From a virus: a DNA stretch of 64,000 nt. The position numbers were made by a program, and so were the translations under genes. The stretch lies in IMG/VR virus record IMGVR_UViG_3300044633_000774, positions 1-64,000 of that record; one strand, written 5' to 3'. Under the pieces are notes generated by a model. It was given only the letters and a program-made list of their open reading frames with translations, searched no databases and was not told the DNA's origin. Of this stretch, positions 2,983-22,887 are shown one piece after another (the stretch's first letter is position 1; every line of letters starts with the position of its first letter).

Positions 2983-4101
2983 ATGTTAAGCTATCAACAC
3001 GTCGAAGATTATCTAGAACTGCTAGCAGGATACGAGCCTGGCAATACTGCTTTGTTTGTGCAACCAATGTCTAAGTATAACTTTAGTCTGGCTCGCTACG
3101 ATATACAGATTGTAGATAGTATGAGCTCTCACACTATATTTGGTGGAGCCTTAACAGATCGTCAGGCAGATTTATGTGTGAGATTGGTACTCAAATATCG
3201 TAGACAATTTGCTAAAATAAATGTAGATGTAACCGCAGTTGAAGTTCCTCAATTTCGACTACCAGTACGCAAATTAGATCGGACACGTAAAATTTGGTTA
3301 GATGATCAACGTATAGGTATACGCTTTCCCTATGACCGTGGCCTAATAGATAGCCTGCAAGAATATAAGAAAACAAGCCAAGGCAGCACTCGATGGGACA
3401 ATGAAGAAAAGGTTTGGTGGTTTGGCCTAACTGAAGCCAACATTAATTGGGCTGTTACCTGGGGATCAACTTATAACTTTGAAATAGATCCTTTGATTAC
3501 TAATCTAATGGATCAGATTCTTAGTTGTGAACAAACTCCATACGAAATCAAACTGGTGAGAACCGCCAGTGGCTATACAATTACCAATGCTGCTGAGAGT
3601 CTGATCGATTATGTAAACGAACGATTGGGCGGATTTGGCCTAGAAAACGGTATTAAACTTATTGACTATTCGGGGGTCTTGGGATATACCTACGATGAGA
3701 ACATAGTTCGTCCAGCACTGTTAGATATCTTTAAAGATCAGCGCAACACACATGTAGTACCACAGGATGGCGCACTGGATTTGATCTTTAGCTATGCAGA
3801 GATAACCAATCGATATCCGGTGTGTATATATGATCCGGGATTAAAAGGTGTAGATCTATCACGCTTTGATGAAACAGACATAGTACGGTTTAATACATCT
3901 GGTAAAACTAAGACTAGCGATTATAACATACATGATGTTAAAGTAGTATATGCTAACAAGATTCCTGCAACATGGGATTATGATGTTCCGTTGTTGGTTA
4001 GTACACAGGAACTAATGGTTGGCGGCAAACGTATGGAATGGCTCAATAGAGCAGAAAAGGTAATTTACCTTTGTAATACCCTACTAAGAGAAAATAACTA
4101 A
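2983..4101 (+). CDS. Protein with HARP-like region next to UvsW helicase
   Basis: The 372-residue protein has no helicase Walker motifs. Residues about 110-160 (RIGIRFPYDRGLID, then WDNEEKVWWFGL) resemble the HARP annealing domain found beside SNF2-type annealing helicases. The C-terminal part contains DETDIVRFN and ends in a hydrophobic strand. It precedes the UvsW-type helicase gene, separated only by a minus-strand HNH gene, so a role as its DNA-binding partner is reasonable. That role is an inference. It is expressed from a consensus promoter with a probably leaderless message. Confidence 0.5.
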   Translation: MLSYQHVEDYLELLAGYEPGNTALFVQPMSKYNFSLARYDIQIVDSMSSHTIFGGALTDRQADLCVRLVLKYRRQFAKINVDVTAVEVPQFRLPVRKLDRTRKIWLDDQRIGIRFPYDRGLIDSLQEYKKTSQGSTRWDNEEKVWWFGLTEANINWAVTWGSTYNFEIDPLITNLMDQILSCEQTPYEIKLVRTASGYTITNAAESLIDYVNERLGGFGLENGIKLIDYSGVLGYTYDENIVRPALLDIFKDQRNTHVVPQDGALDLIFSYAEITNRYPVCIYDPGLKGVDLSRFDETDIVRFNTSGKTKTSDYNIHDVKVVYANKIPATWDYDVPLLVSTQELMVGGKRMEWLNRAEKVIYLCNTLLRENN

Positions 4102-4730
4102 ACGGCGTTTCTTTTTTTGTGTGCGTCTGAAATTTTTCGTTTAGTTTCTTCTGACAATTTCTTACCTAAATTTGCCTTTCGTACATTATCGCCGTGCCCT
4201 AACGGCTTTGGTTTTCGCATTTTTTGTTTAGTTTCTTCGCTAAGTGTCTTGCCAAAATGTTGCTGGCTTATTAATAGTTTTTCTGTTGATGTACGTGGTC
4301 GCTTCTTTATTCCTTTGTTTGAAGCAGACATTTTTGCCCGAGTCTCTGCTGATACAATTCTGCCAACTCCAAATTTATTGCCTTTGTTTGCTTCACTTCT
4401 TGCTTGTGATACTTGTTTGCGTATAAATTCATACTGTTTAGAATTTAGAATTAATCTTTGTTGGTTACTACTTGTCCTACGAAATGAATTTAATGCAAAC
4501 TGCATCTTTCTTTTTAATTCTTTCTCGGACAACATTTTGATTAGTAGTACATGGCAGACGTAGTGCTCTCTTGCTGTAAGTCTGACTAAATTATCTTTAG
4601 TATTGTTGCCTCCTAAAGATTTTGGAATAATATGATGGGTTTCGGTATATAATGTTTTTGGTAATACCCGATGCTGAGCTTTGGTAATAATAGAATTGTA
4701 CCAACGGGTATACTTGTTGTGTAAATACAT
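4098..4730 (-). CDS. HNH homing endonuclease with NUMOD3 repeats
   Basis: The start at 4730 (MYLHNKYTRWYN) is chosen because the paralogue at 7742-8503 begins the same way; an upstream in-frame ATG at 4802 would lengthen it by 24 residues. The HNH core reads THHIIPKSLGG, then NLVRLTAREHYVCH. Several NUMOD3-type DNA-binding repeats follow (SAETRAKMSAS, LSEETKQKM, LSEETKRKISDAH). It ends four bases inside the end of the convergent 2983 gene and lies just upstream of uvsW. Free-standing endonucleases of this kind spread by cutting related phage genomes. Confidence 0.85.
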   Translation of the reverse strand: MYLHNKYTRWYNSIITKAQHRVLPKTLYTETHHIIPKSLGGNNTKDNLVRLTAREHYVCHVLLIKMLSEKELKRKMQFALNSFRRTSSNQQRLILNSKQYEFIRKQVSQARSEANKGNKFGVGRIVSAETRAKMSASNKGIKKRPRTSTEKLLISQQHFGKTLSEETKQKMRKPKPLGHGDNVRKANLGKKLSEETKRKISDAHKKRNAV

Positions 4731-4792
4731 TTGCTGACATAGTCCTTTTATGTTAGAGTAGTTGGGAATTGGCGTTCCGCGAACTACACTAT

Positions 4793-4800
4793 TATTTATC
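4793..4800 (-). promoter_or_regulatory. Late-type promoter GATAAATA
   Basis: On the minus strand GATAAATA reads toward the HNH gene, about 60 bases before its start at 4730. It overlaps the intergenic space shared with the uvsW promoter. Confidence 0.45.
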
Positions 4801-4808
4801 AAATATAG

Positions 4809-4856: not shown

Positions 4857-6314
4857 ATGGCAAAGTGTATAATACAAATCAAAGACGAAGTTAACTGTAA
4901 ATTAATTGGATTAGATTTACACGATAGAAAGTATCTTGTTAATAAATTCAAATACGAAATTCCAGGTGCACGTTACTTGCCAGCAGTTCGTTTAGGCCGA
5001 TGGGATGGCAAAATAGCCTACGCTCAGTTAGGTGGTAGCACATATACTAACCTACTACCAGAGATCTTGCCCTACTTAGATGAACGTGGGTATGATATTG
5101 AGTTGGATGATCTGCGTGATTATCCTACACAGTTTGAGTTTACAGAAGTAACAGAAGAAACCTTTGCACACAAAGTATGGCCTGCTAAACATCCTATTGC
5201 AGGCGAACCTGTGGTGCTACGTGACTATCAAATTGAAATTATCAACAAGTTCTTGGCCAACCCACAATGTCTACAGGAGATTGCCACGGGTGCAGGTAAA
5301 ACACTGATCACAGCCGCATTGAGTTGGAGTTGCGAACCGCATGGTCGTACCATTGTTATTGTACCGAACAAAAGTTTAGTTACACAAACTGAAGCAGACT
5401 ATATTAACCTAGGCCTAGATGTTGGCGTGTACTTTGGCGACCGTAAAGAGTTTGGACATACACATACTATTTGTACTTGGCAAAGTCTAAACATCCTGCT
5501 TAAAAATACCAAAGCACACGAAGCAGACATTACCATAATGGAATTTTTAGAAGGTGTTGTTTGTGTAATGGTTGATGAAGTACACATGGCCAAAGCAGAT
5601 GCACTTAAAACACTACTTACTAGTGTTATGGCACACATTCCTATTAGGTGGGGCTTAACTGGTACAATACCTAAAGAAATGTACGAGTTTATGGCTCTAA
5701 AGTGTTCATTAGGTGAGGTATTAGGCAGATTAAGTGCCAGCGAATTACAAGACCAGGGTGTACTTGCTAACTGTCACGTAAACGTTGTACAACTAATTGA
5801 TCACGTTGAATATAAAGATTATCAAAGCGAGTTAAAATATCTATTAGAGACCGATAGTCGTATCAATTACATAAGTAAAATGATAGAGCGTATTAGATTA
5901 ACTGGCAACACACTTGTATTAGTTGATAGAATTGCTCCAGGCAAGGCATTAGTTGACTTGGTCAAAGATGCAGTGTTTGTATCAGGAGGAACAAAAGCAA
6001 ATGATAGAAAAGACAGTTATGATGAGTTTGCAACCAGTGATAACTTTGTTGCTGTTGCCACTTATGGTGTTGCTGCTGTCGGCATCAATATTCCTCGTGT
6101 TTTTAACCTTGTGCTCATTGAGCCTGGTAAATCTTTTGTTAGAGTCATCCAGAGTATCGGACGTGGCATTCGCAAAGCGGAAGACAAGGACTTCGTCCAA
6201 ATCTGGGACGTAACATCAACTTGTAAGTTTGCTAAACGGCATCTTACAGTCAGAAAGAAATTCTATTCCGAGGCCTCATATCCTTATGCAATAGAAAAAA
6301 CAGAATGGAAATAA
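4857..6314 (+). CDS. uvsW: UvsW-type DNA helicase
   Basis: The 485-residue protein is a superfamily 2 helicase. Walker A is ATGAGKT (143-149), Walker B is DEVH (240-243), motif III is TGT (268-270) and motif VI is QSIGRGIRK near residue 435. The N-terminal 110 residues (LPAVRLGRWDGK) match the small DNA-binding domain before the helicase core in T4 UvsW, and the length is as in T4. UvsW unwinds branched DNA, R-loops and stalled forks in T4. It has its own early-type promoter and a ribosome-binding site, and heads a string of replication-associated genes. Confidence 0.9.
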   Translation: MAKCIIQIKDEVNCKLIGLDLHDRKYLVNKFKYEIPGARYLPAVRLGRWDGKIAYAQLGGSTYTNLLPEILPYLDERGYDIELDDLRDYPTQFEFTEVTEETFAHKVWPAKHPIAGEPVVLRDYQIEIINKFLANPQCLQEIATGAGKTLITAALSWSCEPHGRTIVIVPNKSLVTQTEADYINLGLDVGVYFGDRKEFGHTHTICTWQSLNILLKNTKAHEADITIMEFLEGVVCVMVDEVHMAKADALKTLLTSVMAHIPIRWGLTGTIPKEMYEFMALKCSLGEVLGRLSASELQDQGVLANCHVNVVQLIDHVEYKDYQSELKYLLETDSRINYISKMIERIRLTGNTLVLVDRIAPGKALVDLVKDAVFVSGGTKANDRKDSYDEFATSDNFVAVATYGVAAVGINIPRVFNLVLIEPGKSFVRVIQSIGRGIRKAEDKDFVQIWDVTSTCKFAKRHLTVRKKFYSEASYPYAIEKTEWK

Positions 6315-7043: not shown

Positions 7044-7272
7044 TCCACTACAATTTAAACAAAAGAAAAAACGTGCGGTAGATCCTAATGCTCCGCCTCG
7101 CCCTAACCTACTAAGTCAAGACAAAAAACTACGCGAACAAACTATAACGCTTGAACGATTAATGCATCTGGTAGACAAACAACATGCAGAAATACAAAGC
7201 CTAAAAAGCAAGTACGCTGATATGCAACAGAGCGTTAATCAAATGCTTAACTACCTACGCAAAGGCAAATAA
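7036..7272 (+). CDS. Unknown small coiled-coil protein, 78 aa
   Basis: The basic N-terminus (KQKKKRAVDPNAPPRP) is followed by a predicted coiled coil over residues 35-75 with heptad leucines (LERLMHLVDKQHAEIQSLK). It overlaps both neighbours by one to eight bases. Its position before the clamp-loader gene hints at a replication role, which is only an inference. Confidence 0.6.
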   Translation: MFNPLQFKQKKKRAVDPNAPPRPNLLSQDKKLREQTITLERLMHLVDKQHAEIQSLKSKYADMQQSVNQMLNYLRKGK

Positions 7273-7745
7273 TGGCTGTAGACTATAACGATCCACTTTA
7301 CATTGGTAATGAAATGGCAGCATTTGATCGTAAAGATCGTGCATACTATGACAAGTTTACTGATGAAGAAAAGAAAAAGTTCAGTACATATCTAATGTTG
7401 CGCTATGGTGCTAGTGTTGCTGGATCAAGTGATCTACAGGCATATTATCTAATGGCCACCAATGATCGTGTAAACAAAAATTTCTTTGATCTAAACAAGC
7501 ATCCTAAACTACAATGGTTATTATGCACTTCAGTTAGTCCTGCAATGGGCAAGCAACATCATTATTGGCAAGGTACTAAAAAGAAAGAAGGCAATAACAA
7601 AGCACAGAAGTTTTTAGCAAAATTATATCCAACCCTTAAACAAGATGAAATTGATCTGTTAGCGCAAATAAATGATAAAAGAGATATTGAACGCCTGGCA
7701 AGAGAACTTGGACTTGACGATAAGCAAATCAAAGCCGAGCTTTAA
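7272..7745 (+). CDS. Clamp-loader small subunit (T4 gp62-like)
   Basis: The 157-residue protein has the layout of T4-type gp62: an N-terminal YYDKFTDEEKKKFSTYLMLRY, a middle stretch with LMATNDRVNKNFFDLNKHPKLQWLL, a basic GTKKKEGNNKAQKFLAKLYP, and a C-terminal helix with LARELGLDDKQI. gp62 is the non-ATPase subunit that, with gp44, loads the sliding clamp. The gp44 and clamp genes are not in this window. The call rests on remembered family patterns. Confidence 0.65.
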   Translation: MAVDYNDPLYIGNEMAAFDRKDRAYYDKFTDEEKKKFSTYLMLRYGASVAGSSDLQAYYLMATNDRVNKNFFDLNKHPKLQWLLCTSVSPAMGKQHHYWQGTKKKEGNNKAQKFLAKLYPTLKQDEIDLLAQINDKRDIERLARELGLDDKQIKAEL

Positions 7746-8503
7746 GATATTAATTTGTTTAATTTATACAGTGATAAATTAAGATCATTGCATGCTTCTA
7801 ATTTTGAACCATACAGCACACCATTAATAGTTACCGGAGTTGCATTTGAATTTTCTGACAGAGTTCTTTTACCTTTGCGATTAAGGGACCAAATGCCCTT
7901 AGTTTGTTCGGAGATTTTCCTTCCTAACATTGAATCTGATCGGCACTTTTTAAGTTTTTGGGCTTTTTGCTCTCCGTAAATTTCTTCGTAGGTTTTTCCT
8001 TTTTGTGGAGTTGTTTTTCCTTTATTCCAAGGAACTTGAGGATTTGCTTTTTTAGTAGCTTGCATCTTTGCAATAATTTCAGGTGTTCTTGTGTAAGTTT
8101 TTCTGCCTCTTAATGTAGCAGACCGTTTTTTGTTAGATTCTATAGTTTGTGGTTTTCCTTTTTGATCTATAGATCTTGCTGTGCTTACTTTTTCTTTAAG
8201 ATATTGGTAGGTAGTTGAATTAATTTTGTAACGTTGGTGGTTTTTACTAATACATAATAATCTATTAGCGGCATAAATCATTTTATGTTTGTTGATACCA
8301 TCTAACATTTTTGTTAGTAATAAATGACAAATAAAGTGTTCTTTAGCAGTAAGTTTAACTATATTTAATTTTGAATCAGCCCCACCAAGGCATTTTGGTA
8401 CTATATGATGTTTTTCAGTATAGATACTTGCAGGCAAAGTTCTTGACATAGCATTACTAATAATGTTATTATACCATATAGTGTATTTGTTTTGTAAAAA
8501 CAT
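7742..8503 (-). CDS. HNH homing endonuclease with NUMOD domains
   Basis: The start at 8503 has AAAGGA upstream on the minus strand; an upstream in-frame start at 8638 would overlap the divergent gene. The HNH core is KHHIVPKCLGG, then NIVKLTAKEHFICH. NUMOD3-like repeats (TPEIIAKMQATKK, ISEQTKGIWSLNRKG) and a C-terminal NUMOD1-like piece (LYGSKLEACNDLNLS) follow. It is a clear paralogue of the 4098-4730 gene, and it too ends four bases inside a convergent replication gene. Confidence 0.85.
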   Translation of the reverse strand: MFLQNKYTIWYNNIISNAMSRTLPASIYTEKHHIVPKCLGGADSKLNIVKLTAKEHFICHLLLTKMLDGINKHKMIYAANRLLCISKNHQRYKINSTTYQYLKEKVSTARSIDQKGKPQTIESNKKRSATLRGRKTYTRTPEIIAKMQATKKANPQVPWNKGKTTPQKGKTYEEIYGEQKAQKLKKCRSDSMLGRKISEQTKGIWSLNRKGKRTLSENSNATPVTINGVLYGSKLEACNDLNLSLYKLNKLIS

Positions 8504-8520
8504 ATAAAATCCTTTAATAG

Positions 8521-8528
8521 TATTTATG
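8521..8528 (-). promoter_or_regulatory. Late-type promoter CATAAATA
   Basis: CATAAATA on the minus strand lies 17 bases before the HNH start at 8503. It is back to back with the plus-strand motif at 8543-8550. Confidence 0.5.
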
Positions 8529-8542
8529 TCGCATAGATGAGC

Positions 8543-8550
8543 AATAAATA
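8543..8550 (+). promoter_or_regulatory. Late-type promoter AATAAATA
   Basis: The motif is followed after four bases by the ATG at 8555, with no Shine-Dalgarno sequence. Confidence 0.5.
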
Positions 8551-8554
8551 AACA

Positions 8555-9295
8555 ATGATAGATCAAATAATTAAAGTTTGGCAAGAAAATAAAGACAAAA
8601 ATATGACAACAGAAACTGCTATTTGTAAATATTGCCAAAAATCTTTTCGTAAACTTTCAACACTTGCGGCGCATCAGTGTGAGCCCAAACGTCGCTGGCA
8701 ACAAGAAAAAGAAATGGGTGTGCAGTTTGGACTTCAAGCATACCTACGCTTCTTTGAAGTAACACAGGGCAGTGCAAAACTAAAAAGCTACGCAGACTTT
8801 GTCGCTAGTCCATACTATTTGGCATTTGTGGCATTTGGGCGGCACATGCAGGCTATACGTGCTGTTAATCCACGTGCATTTATTGACTGGGTTATCAAAC
8901 AAAACAAAAAACTTGATCAATGGTCACATGAAGCAATATATGTAGAATACTTACATCAGTATCTAAAGCGTGAAGCGGCACAAGACGCATTGGAACGTGC
9001 ATTAATTGAAATGCAGGAGTATGTGGATGAACATCCAGAAATTAAACAAGGACTCAGCGGATATTTTCAAAGTGGCAACAGTAATAGAATCTGCCATCAT
9101 ATAGCCAACGGCCGTATTAGCCCTTGGGTTGTTTACAACTGTGATTCGGGTATTGCTTTTTTAGATTCATTGAGTGAAGAACAGATAGCTATTATTATTA
9201 GTTGGATTGACCCAGACCATTGGCAACGTCGATTCAAAGACTATGTAGCTGATACCGAATGGATCAAGATGATCTTAAAGGCGGCAGGCTTATGA
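8555..9295 (+). CDS. Unknown protein with N-terminal zinc finger
   Basis: The 246-residue protein carries an N-terminal C2H2-like finger, CKYCQKSFRKLSTLAAHQC, at about residues 24-42. A long helical region of unknown type follows, rich in aromatic residues and ending in WIDPDHWQRRFKDYV. The start at 8555 is four bases after a late-type promoter core; an internal ATG at 8603 is possible. The next gene overlaps its stop. The finger suggests nucleic-acid binding, but the role is unknown. Confidence 0.6.
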   Translation: MIDQIIKVWQENKDKNMTTETAICKYCQKSFRKLSTLAAHQCEPKRRWQQEKEMGVQFGLQAYLRFFEVTQGSAKLKSYADFVASPYYLAFVAFGRHMQAIRAVNPRAFIDWVIKQNKKLDQWSHEAIYVEYLHQYLKREAAQDALERALIEMQEYVDEHPEIKQGLSGYFQSGNSNRICHHIANGRISPWVVYNCDSGIAFLDSLSEEQIAIIISWIDPDHWQRRFKDYVADTEWIKMILKAAGL

Positions 9296-9483
9296 TTGAC
9301 CAAGAACTGCGTGATCTGTTACATGAAATTAAAGGTGATTTGGTCAATGTACAAACTGAACTACTATTGATGAAATTTGCCGTGGATAAAATAGAAAAGC
9401 AAGTTGGAGAGTTGCATGATGCTAAACAACAGCCACAGGATCCATTTGCTGACATGCCTGGTATGAGAGTAGAACGACTATGA
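9292..9483 (+). CDS. Unknown coiled-coil protein, 63 aa
   Basis: The ATG at 9292 overlaps the TGA of the zinc-finger gene (ATGA), so the pair is coupled. The 63 residues form one amphipathic helix (LLHEIKGDLVNVQTELLLMK) and an acidic, proline-rich tail. It overlaps the start of the DnaE-like gene by four bases. Function unknown. Confidence 0.6.
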   Translation: MIDQELRDLLHEIKGDLVNVQTELLLMKFAVDKIEKQVGELHDAKQQPQDPFADMPGMRVERL

Positions 9484-10052
9484 AATTTAAAAGTGATATA
9501 GATATAGATTTTGCCGACCGAACAGAGATATTGAATTTAATAGATCATGTACCTGCGAGCATACTAACCAATGGTAATTTTCGAAAACATGCGTCTGGAA
9601 TCTATGTAACGGACATTCCGCAAGATCCATTTACCGGACAGGCAAGTTTAGACTATGATGTAGCTGAAGACCGTGGCTATGTTAAATTAGACTTTCTTAA
9701 TGTAAATCTATACAAGCAGGTACGTGACGAAACTCACCTAATAGAGTTGATGCGAGAGCCGGATTGGGCTCGATTATATGATCCAGAAGTCTGTGCAAAA
9801 CTAATGCATGTTAATGGGCACTATGATCTGTTATTACAGATGCCCGAACCTGTGGACACTATTGCTAGACTGGCTATGTTCTTGGCTATTATACGTCCTG
9901 CAAAAAGACACTTAGCTGGTAAGACTTGGAAGGAAGTTGCAGAAACTGTTTGGGATCGACCTGCAGATGATACTTATTACTTTAAGAAAAGTCATTCGAT
10001 TGCGTATTCGCAATTGGTTGTGATAAACCTTAACTTACTTACATCTTCCTAA
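9480..10052 (+). CDS. Miniature DnaE-like (family C polymerase palm-like) protein
   Basis: Only 190 residues, yet it keeps in order the landmarks of the bacterial DNA polymerase III alpha palm. DIDIDFADR at residues 7-15 matches the first catalytic Asp-x-Asp motif. RKHASGIYV at about 36-44 matches KHAGGVV. YVKLDFLNV at about 63-71 matches VKFDFLGL with the third catalytic Asp. IARLAMFLAIIRPA comes next, and FKKSHSIAYS near the end matches NKSHSAAY. The family is normally over 1000 residues long, so PHP, fingers and exonuclease regions are absent. Whether it polymerises is unknown. It may be a regulator or a minimal enzyme. It is coupled to two upstream small genes. Confidence 0.6.
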   Translation: MKFKSDIDIDFADRTEILNLIDHVPASILTNGNFRKHASGIYVTDIPQDPFTGQASLDYDVAEDRGYVKLDFLNVNLYKQVRDETHLIELMREPDWARLYDPEVCAKLMHVNGHYDLLLQMPEPVDTIARLAMFLAIIRPAKRHLAGKTWKEVAETVWDRPADDTYYFKKSHSIAYSQLVVINLNLLTSS

Positions 10053-10410
10053 CTAAGGTAATACTACGACGCTTACTGCGTTTGTTTGCAATTTCTTTAA
10101 GACTGATATAAGGACCGTGCTGTATAATTACGTCCTTGCTGTTGAATGTCTTTAAGCAAACTCTAAACTCTATCCAATCCTGTTTTAAAAACACATTGAT
10201 CGGTATTAATCTATTACTTTCCCACCACCACTGATCTGCTAGTTCTAAATAACGACCTTTTTGGTCTAGAGTCTTTAGTAAGGCATAGTCATAGATAGTA
10301 GTGATAATTTCATCACTGTTCTGTATGATGCCTATATATTCATTGCCGCCATAGGTAAGATAACTTAAAAACGGGTATTGATCTAATAAATTCTTGTAAC
10401 TATCTTCCAT
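10039..10410 (-). CDS. Unknown protein, 123 aa
   Basis: The start at 10410 (MEDSYKNLL) is chosen over a GTG six codons upstream. The protein has YLTYGGNEYIGIIQNSDE, a tryptophan-rich ADQWWWESNRLIPINVF and a very basic C-terminus (KEIANKRSKRRSITLVRKM). Its end overlaps the convergent DnaE-like gene by 14 bases. A late-type motif ACTAAATA lies upstream at 10442-10449. No family is recognised. Confidence 0.55.
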   Translation of the reverse strand: MEDSYKNLLDQYPFLSYLTYGGNEYIGIIQNSDEIITTIYDYALLKTLDQKGRYLELADQWWWESNRLIPINVFLKQDWIEFRVCLKTFNSKDVIIQHGPYISLKEIANKRSKRRSITLVRKM

Positions 10411-10441
10411 TGGGTTCCGTATAAACACTAACTATTCAGTT

Positions 10442-11543: not shown

Positions 11544-11554
11544 TTGCAAGTTGA

Positions 11555-11562
11555 CATAAATA
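11555..11562 (+). promoter_or_regulatory. Late-type promoter CATAAATA
   Basis: Five bases before the ATG at 11568; no ribosome-binding site. Confidence 0.5.
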
Positions 11563-11567
11563 CTTAT

Positions 11568-12227
11568 ATGTCAAAATTCATTTATCTAATAACATCACCG
11601 TCATCTAAAGTTTACGTGGGTCAATCTTCAATACCATTTATCGAAAAGGAAAAATGGTATAAAAAGTTAGAAAAGTACGATAAAACAGACAGAAAGGTTG
11701 CTAACGCTATCAAAAAATATAGCTGGCAAAATATGAAGTTTGAAATAATAGAACAAGATGATACTTGGACTAAAGAACAGTTAAACGAACGAGAAATATT
11801 TTGGATACAATACTATAATTCTGTTACTGAGGGATATAATATGACAACCGGAGGAGATGGTGTAGATCCTGTGTTAGCAAAAGAATTGGCACTTAAACAT
11901 CATCGAACGATGAGTCCTAAGAAAAAAGAACAACGAAGTGCTAATTGTAGTAAAGGCCAACTGTGTCGATATGCAAATAATCCGGATACAGAAGAAACAA
12001 AAAAACGCAAGAGTGACGCACATAAAGGCAAATATCTAATAGAATCACCTAATGGTCAAATTTGGGAAACTGACCTGGGATTAAAAGATTTTGCCAAATT
12101 ATACGAAAATGAATTAAAAATAGGCTATTGGCAGTTGTTTAATGCATATAGAAAGTGTTATAATAATACAGTTACAACTCGCACTCGTAAAGATAACAAT
12201 AACTGGAAAGTAAAGCGCATTGATTAA
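11568..12227 (+). CDS. GIY-YIG homing endonuclease
   Basis: The start at 11568 gives FIYLITSPSSKVYVGQS, in which IYL and YVG form the two catalytic strands. The core continues with REIFWIQYYNSVTEGYNMTTGG, the usual Glu-containing end of the GIY-YIG domain. The C-terminal part is a basic DNA-binding region ending WKVKRID. It lies between the remnant start and the actual start of the primase gene and overlaps the latter by eight bases. Confidence 0.85.
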   Translation: MSKFIYLITSPSSKVYVGQSSIPFIEKEKWYKKLEKYDKTDRKVANAIKKYSWQNMKFEIIEQDDTWTKEQLNEREIFWIQYYNSVTEGYNMTTGGDGVDPVLAKELALKHHRTMSPKKKEQRSANCSKGQLCRYANNPDTEETKKRKSDAHKGKYLIESPNGQIWETDLGLKDFAKLYENELKIGYWQLFNAYRKCYNNTVTTRTRKDNNNWKVKRID

Positions 12228-13260
12228 AATTGTATCAGACTTTGCTGTGAATTTATGGAAATTAGGTAGAAAAACTAAAACGAGTCCATCTGGCTGGATT
12301 TCAGGAAATGCTGTTTGCTGCGCACACAACGGACAAACTACAGATACCCGAGGCCGTGGCGGAATTCATATTGATGATAACGGTAATATTTCCTATTCGT
12401 GTTTTAATTGTAATTTCAAAGCCAGTTATCAACCAGGTAGGCACTTAACATTTAAGTTTCGTAAACTATTATCCTGGATGGGTGCAGCAGACAGTGATGT
12501 TAAACGCTTAGTAATTGAAGCTATCCGTATCAAAGACCTAGTAGCACCAGAACAGGTAAAAGAACCAGAAGAAAAGATTGAGTTTAAAGTTCGTGAATTA
12601 CCAAAAGATGCAGTAAGTTTTCAGCAACTGCTAACACATCATCTATTAGATGACTTTAATAATGTTCCTTCACTGTTAAATTCAGCAGTTGACTATGTTA
12701 AGGCTCGTAAAATTAACACTGGTAAATATGACTTTTATTGGACTGACTCAACAGAGCACAGCCTACATCAACGTGTGATTATTCCTATGATTTGGGAAGG
12801 ACGGACTATAGGTTATACCAGTCGTGCTTTTACTGATGGAGTTAAGCCTAAGTATTACAGCCATTATGAACCTAATATGGTGTTCAATACCAACAATCAA
12901 CTGCATGATTGGAAGTTTGTCGTTGTTTGTGAAGGACCATTTGATGCAATGAGCATAGATGGGGTAGCAGTGCTGGGCAATGAAGTCAGTGATGTTCAAG
13001 CTGACATAATTGACGCACTTGGCCGTGAAGTTATTGTAGTAGCTGATGCTGATAAGAGTGGCAGTAAGTTAGTAGATGCAGCCATCAAGTATGGATGGAG
13101 TGTAGCATTTCCTGTTTGGCAAGAAGACACAGACTGCAAGGACATTAGTGATGCTGTGGTTAAATATGGTAAGCTGTTCGTGTTAGCCTCAATTTTACAA
13201 GCTCGAGAATCGTCAGCATTAAAAATTAAATTGCTTTCAAAGAGAATGTTTGATAAATAA
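12220..13260 (+). CDS. DNA primase (zinc finger plus TOPRIM)
   Basis: The start is a TTG at 12220 inside the end of the endonuclease gene; no ATG is available. The N-terminus has a zinc-binding set (CCAHNG at 33-38, CFNC at 61-64). The TOPRIM domain has VVVCEGPFDAMSI near residue 233 and VIVVADADKSG near 275, giving the conserved Glu and Asp-x-Asp. The 346-residue length fits a primase without a fused helicase, and a separate DnaB-type helicase follows. It makes primers for lagging-strand synthesis. Confidence 0.85.
   Translation: MIKIVSDFAVNLWKLGRKTKTSPSGWISGNAVCCAHNGQTTDTRGRGGIHIDDNGNISYSCFNCNFKASYQPGRHLTFKFRKLLSWMGAADSDVKRLVIEAIRIKDLVAPEQVKEPEEKIEFKVRELPKDAVSFQQLLTHHLLDDFNNVPSLLNSAVDYVKARKINTGKYDFYWTDSTEHSLHQRVIIPMIWEGRTIGYTSRAFTDGVKPKYYSHYEPNMVFNTNNQLHDWKFVVVCEGPFDAMSIDGVAVLGNEVSDVQADIIDALGREVIVVADADKSGSKLVDAAIKYGWSVAFPVWQEDTDCKDISDAVVKYGKLFVLASILQARESSALKIKLLSKRMFDK
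13252..13259 (+). promoter_or_regulatory. Late-type promoter GATAAATA
   Basis: It spans the last codons of the primase and lies upstream of the GIY-YIG gene at 13281. Confidence 0.45.
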
Positions 13261-13280: not shown

Positions 13281-14000
13281 ATGAAGGCAAAACCTTACGT
13301 ATACAAAGGTGAACATAAAGTATCAAGGGAAATTTACATTGGCTATCGAGAGAAAAATACAGATTCTGGAATAGATGACTTAGTGAAGTATAGAACATCA
13401 TCAAAAAAAGTTAATCCTATATTTGACGAATTTGAATGGATAGTAGTTGCAGAATTTGATAATGGTAATGATGCATATGATTATGAACAAAAATTAATTT
13501 ATGAGCAATGGAATAATCCTCTTTTATTAAATAAAAATTGCCATTATAGACAGAAAAGATTTAAGAGTACAATTGGAAGAGTTCATTCGGACGAAACAAA
13601 ACAAAAGATATCAGATGCACACACAGGTAAGAAACGAAAAAAATTTACAAAAGACACATTAAAAAAAATGTCGTTGGCCCAATCAGGCAGAGCATTGTCT
13701 GCCAGTACAAAGGACAAAATTCGTAAAGCAAGGACAGGAACAACACAATCACCGGAGACTATTGCTAAGAGAGTTGCCAAAAATACAGGAAAAAAACGGT
13801 CTTTAGATACATGTAAAAAAATAGGTGATATTCATCGAGGTAAACTGGTATCTATTAAAACAAAAGCACTGCAATCGCAGAAAGCAAAAGAACGAGCACT
13901 AATAAAAAATAAATGTCCACATTGTCAAAAAGAAGTTAGTAATACAAATTTTAACAGATGGCACGGAAATAATTGCAAACACAAAGAAAAGATTATATAA
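13281..14000 (+). CDS. GIY-YIG homing endonuclease with NUMOD3 and zinc finger
   Basis: The N-terminus YVYKGEHKVSREIYIGYR has the two GIY-YIG strands in a form with a longer insert. Several NUMOD3-type repeats follow (HSDETKQKISDAHTGKK, SASTKDKIRKARTG, SPETIAKRVAK). A C-terminal finger CPHCQKEVSNTNFNRWHGNN completes the DNA-binding part. AGAGG precedes the ATG. It separates primase and helicase genes, which are adjacent in many phages. Confidence 0.85.
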   Translation: MKAKPYVYKGEHKVSREIYIGYREKNTDSGIDDLVKYRTSSKKVNPIFDEFEWIVVAEFDNGNDAYDYEQKLIYEQWNNPLLLNKNCHYRQKRFKSTIGRVHSDETKQKISDAHTGKKRKKFTKDTLKKMSLAQSGRALSASTKDKIRKARTGTTQSPETIAKRVAKNTGKKRSLDTCKKIGDIHRGKLVSIKTKALQSQKAKERALIKNKCPHCQKEVSNTNFNRWHGNNCKHKEKII

Positions 14001-14006
14001 TTAATT

Positions 14007-15395
14007 ATGGCTAAAGAATATACAAGCGATTTACAAAAATTATTTTTAGAAATGATGTTACAAGACCCGCAGAGTTACGTGCGGGTACAAAACATCTATA
14101 ATCCCGAAAACTTCGATAGAAGTCTACGTGAAGCAGCTAAATTTATCAAACAGCACAGTGACGAATATAGAACACTGCCTACTATTGATCAAGTACAAGC
14201 AGTGACCACAGTCACACTTAAACACGTACCGGATCTAACTGAAGATCATTATAATTGGTTTATGACTGAGTTTGAAGGCTTTACTAAACAACAAGAAATC
14301 AGTCGTGCTATTTTGGCCGCAGCTGATCTATTAGAAAAAGGTGACTATGATCCAGTTGAGAAATTGATCAAAGATGCAGTGCAGATTAGTCTAACCAAAG
14401 ACATGGGCACAAACTATTTTAATGATCCTAGAGCACGTATTGACAAGTACTTTAACAGTGGTGGTCAAGTGTCAACAGGCTGGCCTCAGATGGATAAGAT
14501 ACTTTACGGTGGCTTTAGTCGTGGCGAGCTAAACATTTTTGCTGGAGGTTCTGGTTCAGGTAAGAGTTTGGTTATGATGAACATTGCACTTAGTTGGCTA
14601 CAGGCCGGACTCAGTGGTGTGTATGTGACTTTAGAGTTAAGTGAAGAACTATGTAGTCTTAGAACTGATGCTATGTTAACAGGTATGAGTACTAAAGACA
14701 TTCGCAAAGACATTGACACAACTGAACTTAAAGTTAAGATGGTAGGTAAGAAGTCTGGACAATATCAAGTTAAAGGATTTCCGGCACAGAGCACAGTCAA
14801 CGACATTCGCAGTTACTTAAAAGAAGTACAGATTCAAACTGGTATTCGTGTGGACTTTGTTATGGTAGACTATTTAGATTTGGTCATGCCGGTGAGTGTT
14901 AAAGTTAATCCCAACGATCAGTTTATCAAAGACAAATATGTAGCAGAAGAACTACGTAACTTGGCTAAAGAACTTAATGTCTTGCTAGTAACTGCGTCAC
15001 AGTTGAATCGTAGTGCCGTTGAAGAAATTGAATTTGACCATAGTCATATTGCTGGTGGTATTAGTAAGATCAACACAGCTGATAACGTGTTTGGTATCTT
15101 TACAAGTCGTGCTATGAAAGAACGCGGTAAGTATCAACTACAGTGTATGAAGTCACGTAGTTCAACAGGTGTAGGACATAAAATTGACTTGACCTACAAC
15201 ATCGAAACTATGCGTATCACCGACGAAGGCGAAGATATGTCGGGCGACAATCTTGGTGCAACACGTAATGTCAATAATGTATTAAACAACATCAAAACTG
15301 GGTCTACAGTCAAAGACGACAGTCCTAAAATCAATGCAGAAGTAAACAGCAGTAAACTTAAAAGTATGTTGGCTGGACTTAAAAAAGTAGAATGA
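14007..15395 (+). CDS. Replicative DNA helicase, DnaB/gp41 family
   Basis: The 462-residue protein has an N-terminal helical domain, then the RecA-like core beginning STGWPQMDKILYGGFSRGE. Walker A is GGSGSGKS at 180-187. Walker B is VMVDYLDL near residue 285. ASQLNRSA near 330 is motif H3, and a GG-turn then KSRSS carry the arginine finger region. The C-terminal tail of about 60 residues is low complexity. It unwinds the fork as a hexamer with the primase encoded upstream. Confidence 0.9.
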   Translation: MAKEYTSDLQKLFLEMMLQDPQSYVRVQNIYNPENFDRSLREAAKFIKQHSDEYRTLPTIDQVQAVTTVTLKHVPDLTEDHYNWFMTEFEGFTKQQEISRAILAAADLLEKGDYDPVEKLIKDAVQISLTKDMGTNYFNDPRARIDKYFNSGGQVSTGWPQMDKILYGGFSRGELNIFAGGSGSGKSLVMMNIALSWLQAGLSGVYVTLELSEELCSLRTDAMLTGMSTKDIRKDIDTTELKVKMVGKKSGQYQVKGFPAQSTVNDIRSYLKEVQIQTGIRVDFVMVDYLDLVMPVSVKVNPNDQFIKDKYVAEELRNLAKELNVLLVTASQLNRSAVEEIEFDHSHIAGGISKINTADNVFGIFTSRAMKERGKYQLQCMKSRSSTGVGHKIDLTYNIETMRITDEGEDMSGDNLGATRNVNNVLNNIKTGSTVKDDSPKINAEVNSSKLKSMLAGLKKVE

Positions 15396-21069: not shown

Positions 21070-21753
21070 ATGAAACTCTCAGAAATGTCGTTGACATCTA
21101 CTAAAAGAATTAACAAATTTATGGAAAGTCGATTTGGATTTTCTATTGATTTTAACAATCTATCAATGGCAAAAGCAAAACGTCTAAGCGAAACTATTAC
21201 TGCTAATCTTAATAAGATTCGTCGTACTAATAATTTCCACACAGCAGAACGTAATCCACGTTATATGGAACTACTAACAGTTCAAGAAGGTTTAAGTACC
21301 TGGCTACAAGAAAACCGCCGCCGACTAATAGAAGGTGAAGTTAGCAATGCAGAAGTATTGTTGGCTGCTAAAGATATGGTTGATAGCGTACAAGATGCCA
21401 TTGAGAAAGTTGGTAAAATGCAAAATGAACAATTACCACAACTGTTAGACAGCATCCGTGATCAAATCGGCAGTGAACAAGCTGACGGATTCAAAAACGC
21501 AGTAGGCGAAACATTAGCAACTCTAATGACAAACCTACAACAAGCACGTGAAGGGGTTGACACAGGTGTGCGTATCTTAAGCGGTGAGCAAGTTGACAGT
21601 CCTATGGACCTTGGTGGCGAACCTGACATGACTGCAGGCCTAGGCGCAGAAATGCCACCAATGAGTGATTTGGACGCGGAAGATACTGACGGCTTTGCGG
21701 CTACTGATGCCGCAGTGGGCGGTTCAGAAGAACTAGGCCGTGAAACACGTTAA
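21070..21753 (+). CDS. Putative prohead core or internal head protein
   Basis: The 227-residue protein begins MKLSEMSLTSTKRINKFM, another capsid-targeting-like N-terminus. It is helical and charged through residue 170 and ends in a strongly acidic, low-complexity tail (MPPMSDLDAEDTDGFAATD). Scaffold and prohead-core proteins of T4-like phages have this build. TAGGA precedes the start. The next gene starts in its stop codon. Confidence 0.5.
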   Translation: MKLSEMSLTSTKRINKFMESRFGFSIDFNNLSMAKAKRLSETITANLNKIRRTNNFHTAERNPRYMELLTVQEGLSTWLQENRRRLIEGEVSNAEVLLAAKDMVDSVQDAIEKVGKMQNEQLPQLLDSIRDQIGSEQADGFKNAVGETLATLMTNLQQAREGVDTGVRILSGEQVDSPMDLGGEPDMTAGLGAEMPPMSDLDAEDTDGFAATDAAVGGSEELGRETR

Positions 21754-22139
21754 TGCGCTTAAGCGAATTTGCACACGGTCCTACTAATACTCCAGAGTCG
21801 AATTTACTAACGGCTCTGACAGTTATTCGTAATCGCTATAAAGATGTACCGACTGCGGCAAAGATCGGTACGCAAAGTTTAATCAATATGGTGTTAAATA
21901 CAGATCGTACATTCGACTACGAAGCACTGGTAGCAGCTAACAAAGAAAACTCAGCAGTAAAAAATCTAATCAAAAGCTTCAATCGTAAATATGTAGAACT
22001 TCAACCATGGGGCGACGAAGAACCAGATGAAGTCGACACTACTACTAACGTAGATGATGAAACGTTAAATACCCCAGTTGACACAGTCGACGATATGGCT
22101 AAACGTGCAGCAAAAACACGTGGCGCTCCTTTATTTTAA
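21753..22139 (+). CDS. Putative internal head protein, 128 aa
   Basis: It starts at the ATG overlapping the previous TAA, with MRLSEFAHGPTNT as N-terminus, again similar to the capsid-targeting pattern. Residues 15-80 are a helical domain and the rest is acidic and Thr/Asp-rich (PDEVDTTTNVDDETLN). It is coupled to the core-like protein before it. Role inferred from position and build. Confidence 0.5.
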   Translation: MRLSEFAHGPTNTPESNLLTALTVIRNRYKDVPTAAKIGTQSLINMVLNTDRTFDYEALVAANKENSAVKNLIKSFNRKYVELQPWGDEEPDEVDTTTNVDDETLNTPVDTVDDMAKRAAKTRGAPLF

Positions 22140-22164: not shown

Positions 22165-22233
22165 GTGTTACTATGTAATACACTTATGGAATTTCGTAAC
22201 GGACTAAATAATAGAACAATACGAGAATCCTAT

Positions 22234-22887
22234 ATGCTAGAAAAAATTTGCGAATGTTGTAGTAATAAATTTATTTTACCCAAAGCAGGAAAAAAAGAAT
22301 TAAGGCGCAGATTTTGCGGGCCTATTTGTTCCCGCAGATGGGCAGCTAATAATAGATCAGATGCATGGCGTAAAAAAGCAAGTGAAGCTAAACAAGGTGA
22401 AAATAATCCTATGTTTGGAGTGTCCTTAAACCATCCAAATAGTTTAGCCAATTTAGCCAGAGGGTATTGGGAAGGAAAGACAATGTCTGAATCTCATAAG
22501 CAAAAAATATCCAAAGGTAATACAGGCAGGATTGTATCCGAAGAAAGCAAAAGAAAAGCAAGAGCAACCAGGATTGCAAAAGGACAAATTTATCCACCAG
22601 ACAGTCTGGCCTATGCAGAATTTAAAAAATACAGACGTAAAGTTCATTATTGGTCAGAGAAGAATGATTTATCAGTATTAGAGAATTATGAAAAAAGAAG
22701 CAAAATAGGATATAGCTTAGATCACAAATATAGTGTAAGAGTGGGATTTGACAATAATGTGCCACCTAAAGTTATGGGACATATATATAATTTACACTTT
22801 ATTCCTGTTAAAGAAAATTCTAGTAAAGGAACAAAATGTTTAATTACAAAGGAAATGTTGTATGAGCTATTCAAAAATGGTACTTGA
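22234..22887 (+). CDS. NUMOD3 homing endonuclease with HNH-like C-terminus
   Basis: The start at 22234 places the N-terminal zinc ribbon CECCSNKF directly after the first residues. In-frame starts at 22186 (ATG) or 22165 (GTG, just after the promoter core) are possible. CGPICSRRW completes the zinc site. NUMOD3-type repeats follow (QGENNPMFG, MSESHKQKISKGNTG). The C-terminus SLDHKYSVRVGFDNN, then LHFIPVKENSSKGTKC, resembles HNH-type nuclease ends of such proteins. It overlaps the start of iscU by 26 bases. Confidence 0.75.
   Translation: MLEKICECCSNKFILPKAGKKELRRRFCGPICSRRWAANNRSDAWRKKASEAKQGENNPMFGVSLNHPNSLANLARGYWEGKTMSESHKQKISKGNTGRIVSEESKRKARATRIAKGQIYPPDSLAYAEFKKYRRKVHYWSEKNDLSVLENYEKRSKIGYSLDHKYSVRVGFDNNVPPKVMGHIYNLHFIPVKENSSKGTKCLITKEMLYELFKNGT

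Follow-up and report, generated by a model that had tools for sequence, protein, structure and literature searches.

The gene at position 9480 of the window, which is the 64,000-nucleotide stretch analysed here (positions 1 to 64,000 of IMG/VR record IMGVR_UViG_3300044633_000774), raises the question of what a protein of 190 residues can do with the catalytic landmarks of bacterial DnaE, the alpha subunit of DNA polymerase III. The initial annotation considered either a minimal polymerase-like enzyme or a decoy or regulator of host replication. The ORF starts with ATG and can be described as follows:

9480-10052 (+): predicted C-terminal half of a split minimal DnaE-type polymerase (phrog_11778), 190 aa, assigned by profile, homologues, alignment and fold

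The protein matches the profile of phrog_11778 ('DNA polymerase') with an E-value of 2.2e-60 over residues 2-188 of 190, and full-length homologues are present in 90 named phages, including 121Q and other E. coli giants, Pseudomonas PA5oct and Paride, Agrobacterium Atu_ph07, Sinorhizobium Phosso, Salicola SCTP-2 and Vibrio 2.275.O, as well as in at least 576 IMG/VR stretches. A viral scan using the SCTP-2 copy as query gave zero relatives. The family looks phage-specific, since 84,980 bacterial and archaeal genomes yielded merely five relatives, all of them in metagenome-assembled bins and probably phage contigs. Compared with relatives at 77-91% identity, and wherever dS can be measured, the dN/dS comes to about 0.07-0.1; the gene is under purifying selection, and the ORF is a genuine, selected and complete gene.

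All five DnaE landmarks that had been read from the protein are present and in order, namely DIDIDF (residues 6-11), RKHASG (35-40), KLDFLN (69-74), IRPAK (138-142) and KSHSIAYS (170-177), and they occur together in 141 of the 143 collected homologues. Their central residues and the E. coli DnaE equivalents are located at:

9495-9509 (+): DIDID, with D6, D8 and D10 equivalent to D401, D403 and D405; invariant
9588-9599 (+): H37-x-x-G40, equivalent to H511-x-x-G514 (KHAGG); by alignment
9684-9692 (+): K69-x-D71, equivalent to K553-x-D555, with the third catalytic aspartate; by alignment
9894-9899 (+): R139-P140, equivalent to R639-P640 in the fingers; by profile alignment, invariant
9981-10007 (+): FKKSHSIAY, with H172 equivalent to H760 (steric gate) and Y176 to Y764; by alignment

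Furthermore, L73 corresponds to L557, K142 to P642 and F168 to F756, the residue map being drawn by profile alignment for E. coli positions 544-642 and by motif for the remaining positions. Residues D6, D8, D10, H37, G40, K69, D71, L73, R139, P140, K142, F168, H172 and Y176, among others, never vary in a diverse 21-row alignment. The catalytic metals of E. coli DnaE are bound by D401, D403 and D555, and D405 is conserved among DnaE proteins and is Asn in PolC (PMC3919608). The three catalytic aspartates that the initial annotation suspected are accordingly D6, D8 and D71, all of them invariant. Modelling makes H760, on the O helix of the fingers, a steric gate that keeps out ribonucleotides (PMC8485763), and judged by its residues the phage protein is predicted to retain a DnaE-type catalytic and sugar-selecting site.

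The AlphaFold2 model of the window protein, built from a 37-row alignment, has a mean pLDDT of 93.8 and a pTM of 0.83, and places the DxD motif on a predicted strand at 7-11 and D71 on another at 70-74, that is on two strands as in DnaE. Structure prediction and comparison had been proposed as a check of the DnaE assignment, and a Foldseek search of 350,542 PDB chains puts Pol III alpha structures in the first seven places (probability 0.77-0.98), after which the probability drops to 0.02. The TM-scores against Pol III alpha are about 0.4, which fits a protein without the large inserts. Among viral models the 13 best matches have a probability of at least 0.89, and those with names are DNA polymerases. 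A sequence-profile search of the PDB with the C-terminal half gave ten matches, nine of them to Pol III alpha and the best with a modest E-value of 0.013, over collinear stretches, and 9 of 21 members hit the Pfam family DNA_pol3_finger, the best of them at E 3e-8. Neither a single-sequence phmmer search of the PDB nor a Pfam scan with the window protein alone gave a match, and its kinship with DnaE, borne out by the phrog_11778 match and the Pol III alpha profile and fold matches, is therefore visible only by profiles and folds.

The GS motif of the C family (GRGSGAGS, residues 361-368 in E. coli) is absent from the window protein. The reading of a DnaE palm is hence correct for the aspartates, but the protein does not hold a whole active site. 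With the Pfam family DNA_pol3_alpha there was no match in the window's own record (94,654 bp), in which the N-terminal half is absent. Six named phages and two IMG/VR contigs each gave a single match above the cut-off, and in every case the matching gene was a separate one of about 170-180 aa, whose product is phrog_11127. DNA_pol3_alpha is matched by 22 out of 22 scanned members of this family with a best E-value of 5e-12, nine out of nine PDB profile matches are Pol III alpha, and the six PDB folds closest to the AlphaFold model (pLDDT 87.0) are all Pol III alpha, at weak E-values. A G-x-GRGS(S/C) motif is found in 142 of 143 N-half homologues, and these nearly always end with ...EFL(K/R). 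The N-terminal half aligns to residues 348-393 of E. coli DnaE and ends at residue 393, eight residues before D401, while the window protein starts five residues before the D401 equivalent, indicating that the split falls in a loop directly ahead of the first catalytic aspartate. Since the GS motif is in one chain and the aspartates are in the other, neither has the whole active site. In the N-terminal halves (L094, L288) an invariant Glu stands where E. coli DnaE has R390. No natural fusion of the two was present among the 143 + 143 homologues, and no intein was seen with the split polymerase halves.

The partner of the window protein is found on IMG/VR contig G001 (140,799 bp), which is identical to the window's record across all 94,654 bp. 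There the N-terminal half, a protein of about 171 aa, is encoded at 21,287-21,802 (-), which in window coordinates corresponds to about 118,998-119,513 (+), 109 kb downstream of the window gene. The minimal polymerase-like enzyme suggested at the outset is thus polymerase-like, but it is split, with the GS subdomain in this distant gene. The N-terminal half is flanked by MazG on one side and by GroES, a clamp-loader ATPase and PhoH on the other, and its neighbours are much the same in 121Q, Phosso, SCTP-2, Paride and Atu_ph07. In 121Q the two halves are gp56 and gp16. Exactly one copy of each half is present in 12 of 12 records of at least 329 kb and in six of six named phages (18 of 18 large genomes), a co-occurrence that shared descent alone would also produce in related phages. 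The closest pair seen is in the divergent contig L143, where the halves are located at 7773-8324 and 14154-14744 on the same strand, about 6 kb apart.

The surroundings of the window gene are conserved, as listed below with the number of loci in which each near neighbour was found; the helicases and the primase, which belong to the replication cluster, were assigned by profile matches and locus comparison.

4857-6314 (+): UvsW-like helicase
7272-7745 (+): phrog_11758, conserved upstream neighbour, function unassigned, 135 of 143 loci
8555-9295 (+): zinc-finger protein phrog_11058 with C-x2-C-x12-H-x-C, upstream neighbour, 140 of 143 loci
9259-9483 (+): ORF of 74 aa whose stop overlaps the polymerase ATG (ATGA), 35 of 143 loci
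10039-10428 (-): phrog_11637, convergent, sharing 14 bases with the 3' end of the polymerase gene, 135 of 143 loci
12220-13260 (+): DNA primase
14007-15395 (+): DnaB-like helicase

The window gene is located between UvsW and the primase-helicase genes, in the same order in the named phages, and phrog_11637 is on the strand opposite to the polymerase half in every locus that has both. As the gene neighbours are kept at each locus, both halves lie in conserved replication clusters. The zinc-finger gene pointed out in the initial annotation is a real and conserved neighbour; its product also has a 200-residue domain without known relatives, and it could be a putative DNA-holding partner of the split polymerase. 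As a candidate for the missing half it was rejected, with PDB and Pfam profile matches that are essentially zinc fingers only, and so was phrog_11637, which has no PDB or Pfam match. The latter carries a WWWESNR.IPIN motif and a basic C-terminus.

At least five homing-endonuclease-like genes (HNH, GIY-YIG, NUMOD3) are found amid the replication genes in the first 23 kb of the window:

4098-4802 (-): homing-endonuclease-like gene
7742-8638 (-): homing-endonuclease-like gene
11544-12227 (+): homing-endonuclease-like gene
13281-14000 (+): homing-endonuclease-like gene
22165-22887 (+): homing-endonuclease-like gene

Genes can be split by homing endonucleases, which prefer codons for functionally critical residues (PMC2988022). 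By analogy, their presence near the locus would be compatible with an origin of the two halves through gene splitting by such enzymes.

Several parts of DnaE are absent or reduced in the phage enzyme. The PHP domain (PF02811) and the HhH region (PF14579) were detected in none of 11 phage records, with positive controls in 14 of 14 and 13 of 14 genomes respectively. The spacing from D10 to H37, between the DxD and KHxxG motifs, is 27 residues versus 106 in E. coli DnaE and thus leaves no space for a thumb, for which neither half is long enough. The fingers are shortened, with 33 residues between R139 and H172 versus 121 in E. coli, and since the chain ends 14 residues past the Y764 equivalent the C-terminal clamp-binding region is absent. 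A family-B polymerase is encoded in nine of nine records of at least 287 kb, indicating that the split enzyme is not the sole polymerase of these phages; it is not in the 94.6-kb and 140.8-kb contigs of this phage, both of which are genome fragments. Only 5 of 11 records have a DnaQ-like exonuclease scoring above the cut-off; by the profile test this exonuclease is therefore not a fixed partner.

With a rough probability of three in four, the window ORF and phrog_11127 constitute a split minimal C-family (DnaE-type) polymerase of jumbo phages, predicted to be a heterodimeric accessory enzyme of low processivity, and assembly of the halves into one such polymerase is the most likely of the readings. 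The C-terminal half would supply the metal-binding palm strands (D6, D8, D71) and reduced fingers with the steric-gate H172, and the N-terminal half of about 171 aa the remaining palm with the GS nucleotide-binding motif. The two chains should bind non-covalently and rebuild one active site, as no intein or fused ORF was seen. The complex would add deoxynucleotides, because the steric gate is retained, and its processivity should be low since thumb, HhH and C-terminal clamp-binding region are missing. It might act beside the family-B replicase in gap filling, repair or recombination-coupled synthesis. The points against this reading are the modest E-value of the C-terminal half (0.013), the TM-scores of about 0.4, the change of R390 to Glu, and the lack of a thumb for holding primer-template DNA.

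Some of the same features would suit an active non-templated nucleotidyltransferase, in which the two halves reuse a Pol-beta-like palm for end-tailing or modification, as the thumb is absent and the fingers are much reduced, HhH and PHP are not detected, and the R390 position is changed to Glu. However, the RP motif and the helix of the fingers that bears the steric-gate His are invariant, and both genes lie within replication clusters, which makes such an enzyme unlikely. A different history was suggested by Iyer et al., who raised an ancestral state for the split Pol III alpha (PMC7824862); that the pair is an ancestral thumbless two-subunit C-family polymerase and gave rise to the single-chain enzymes DnaE and PolC, instead of deriving from DnaE by reduction and splitting, appears quite unlikely to us.

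A protein without catalytic activity that acts as a decoy for or regulator of the host polymerase, or that is a structural subunit of the replisome, would agree with the small size and with the lack of DNA-holding domains, but the invariance of the catalytic, metal-binding and steric-gate residues would be unneeded in an inert protein and the homologues are spread over phages of many hosts; this reading is very improbable, and the decoy or regulator of the initial annotation finds no support. That the C-terminal half alone is a complete minimal polymerase, with the N-terminal half unrelated or optional, is hardly to be expected either: the three aspartates are all in its one chain and it gives a confident model by itself, yet the GS subdomain is missing from it and sits in a single-copy gene that ends at the exact seam, and this gene co-occurs in 18 of 18 large genomes. 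With about one sixth of the DnaE length the protein might also be taken for the decaying remnant of a complete dnaE, or for an artefact of assembly, an explanation of negligible probability for a gene kept at the same length in hundreds of relatives with a dN/dS of about 0.07-0.1, an invariant active site and a fixed gene order.

The preferred reading, a split minimal DnaE-type polymerase, can be compared with known systems. The phage C-terminal half has in common with bacterial DnaE the metal-binding aspartates, the KxD, RP and FxKSHxxxY motifs, the DnaE-type D405 and the top fold matches, whereas the phage enzyme consists of two chains without PHP, thumb, HhH, OB and C-terminal region, has reduced fingers, and carries Glu for R390. 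The split DnaE of cyanobacteria is likewise made from two distant genes, but there the halves are full-sized, the cut is at FNKSHS, and a split intein joins them by protein trans-splicing, while in the phage enzyme the cut precedes the first catalytic aspartate and there is no sign of an intein. A two-chain DNA polymerase is also known from Aeromonas phages 25 and 44RR (PMC2988022), whose gp43A and gp43B are family-B, full-sized and encoded by adjacent genes, compared with a minimal C-family enzyme encoded 109 kb apart in the window phage. The parts of the phage 25 enzyme co-purify and are active (PMC2988022), and by analogy this may serve as a precedent for the assembly of split phage polymerase halves.

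Iyer et al. in 2021 described a phage-specific minimal Pol III alpha of split proteins from distant genes in group 2.2 jumbo phages, with the NTP-binding and the Mg/template-binding parts in two genes at distant loci, in phages that also have a family-B polymerase (PMC7824862). There is no essential difference between that system and the window pair (PHROG families 11778 and 11127), and the window gene is an additional member of this already described type. What is added here is the exact seam, the residue map with the steric gate, the partner in the same phage, the copy number, the neighbourhoods, and the Glu replacing R390. Before that, the genome paper of phage CBB had reported a truncated 172-aa Pol III alpha (PMC5259590), and that of Atu_ph07 had listed gp316 as a Pol III alpha subunit (PMC6102473); gp316 is the N-terminal half. 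Among the papers searched there was no experimental study of the split pair.

If the reading is true, this would to our knowledge be the smallest C-family DNA polymerase, with about 360 aa in total versus about 1160, carrying out its chemistry with thumb, PHP and the C-terminal clamp-binding parts all missing. Constructs and point mutants can be designed from the residue map, the seam and the partner sequence, and with them the parts of a bacterial replicase that are needed for chemistry would become directly testable, as would the reason for which jumbo phages retain a polymerase of bacterial type alongside their family-B replicase.
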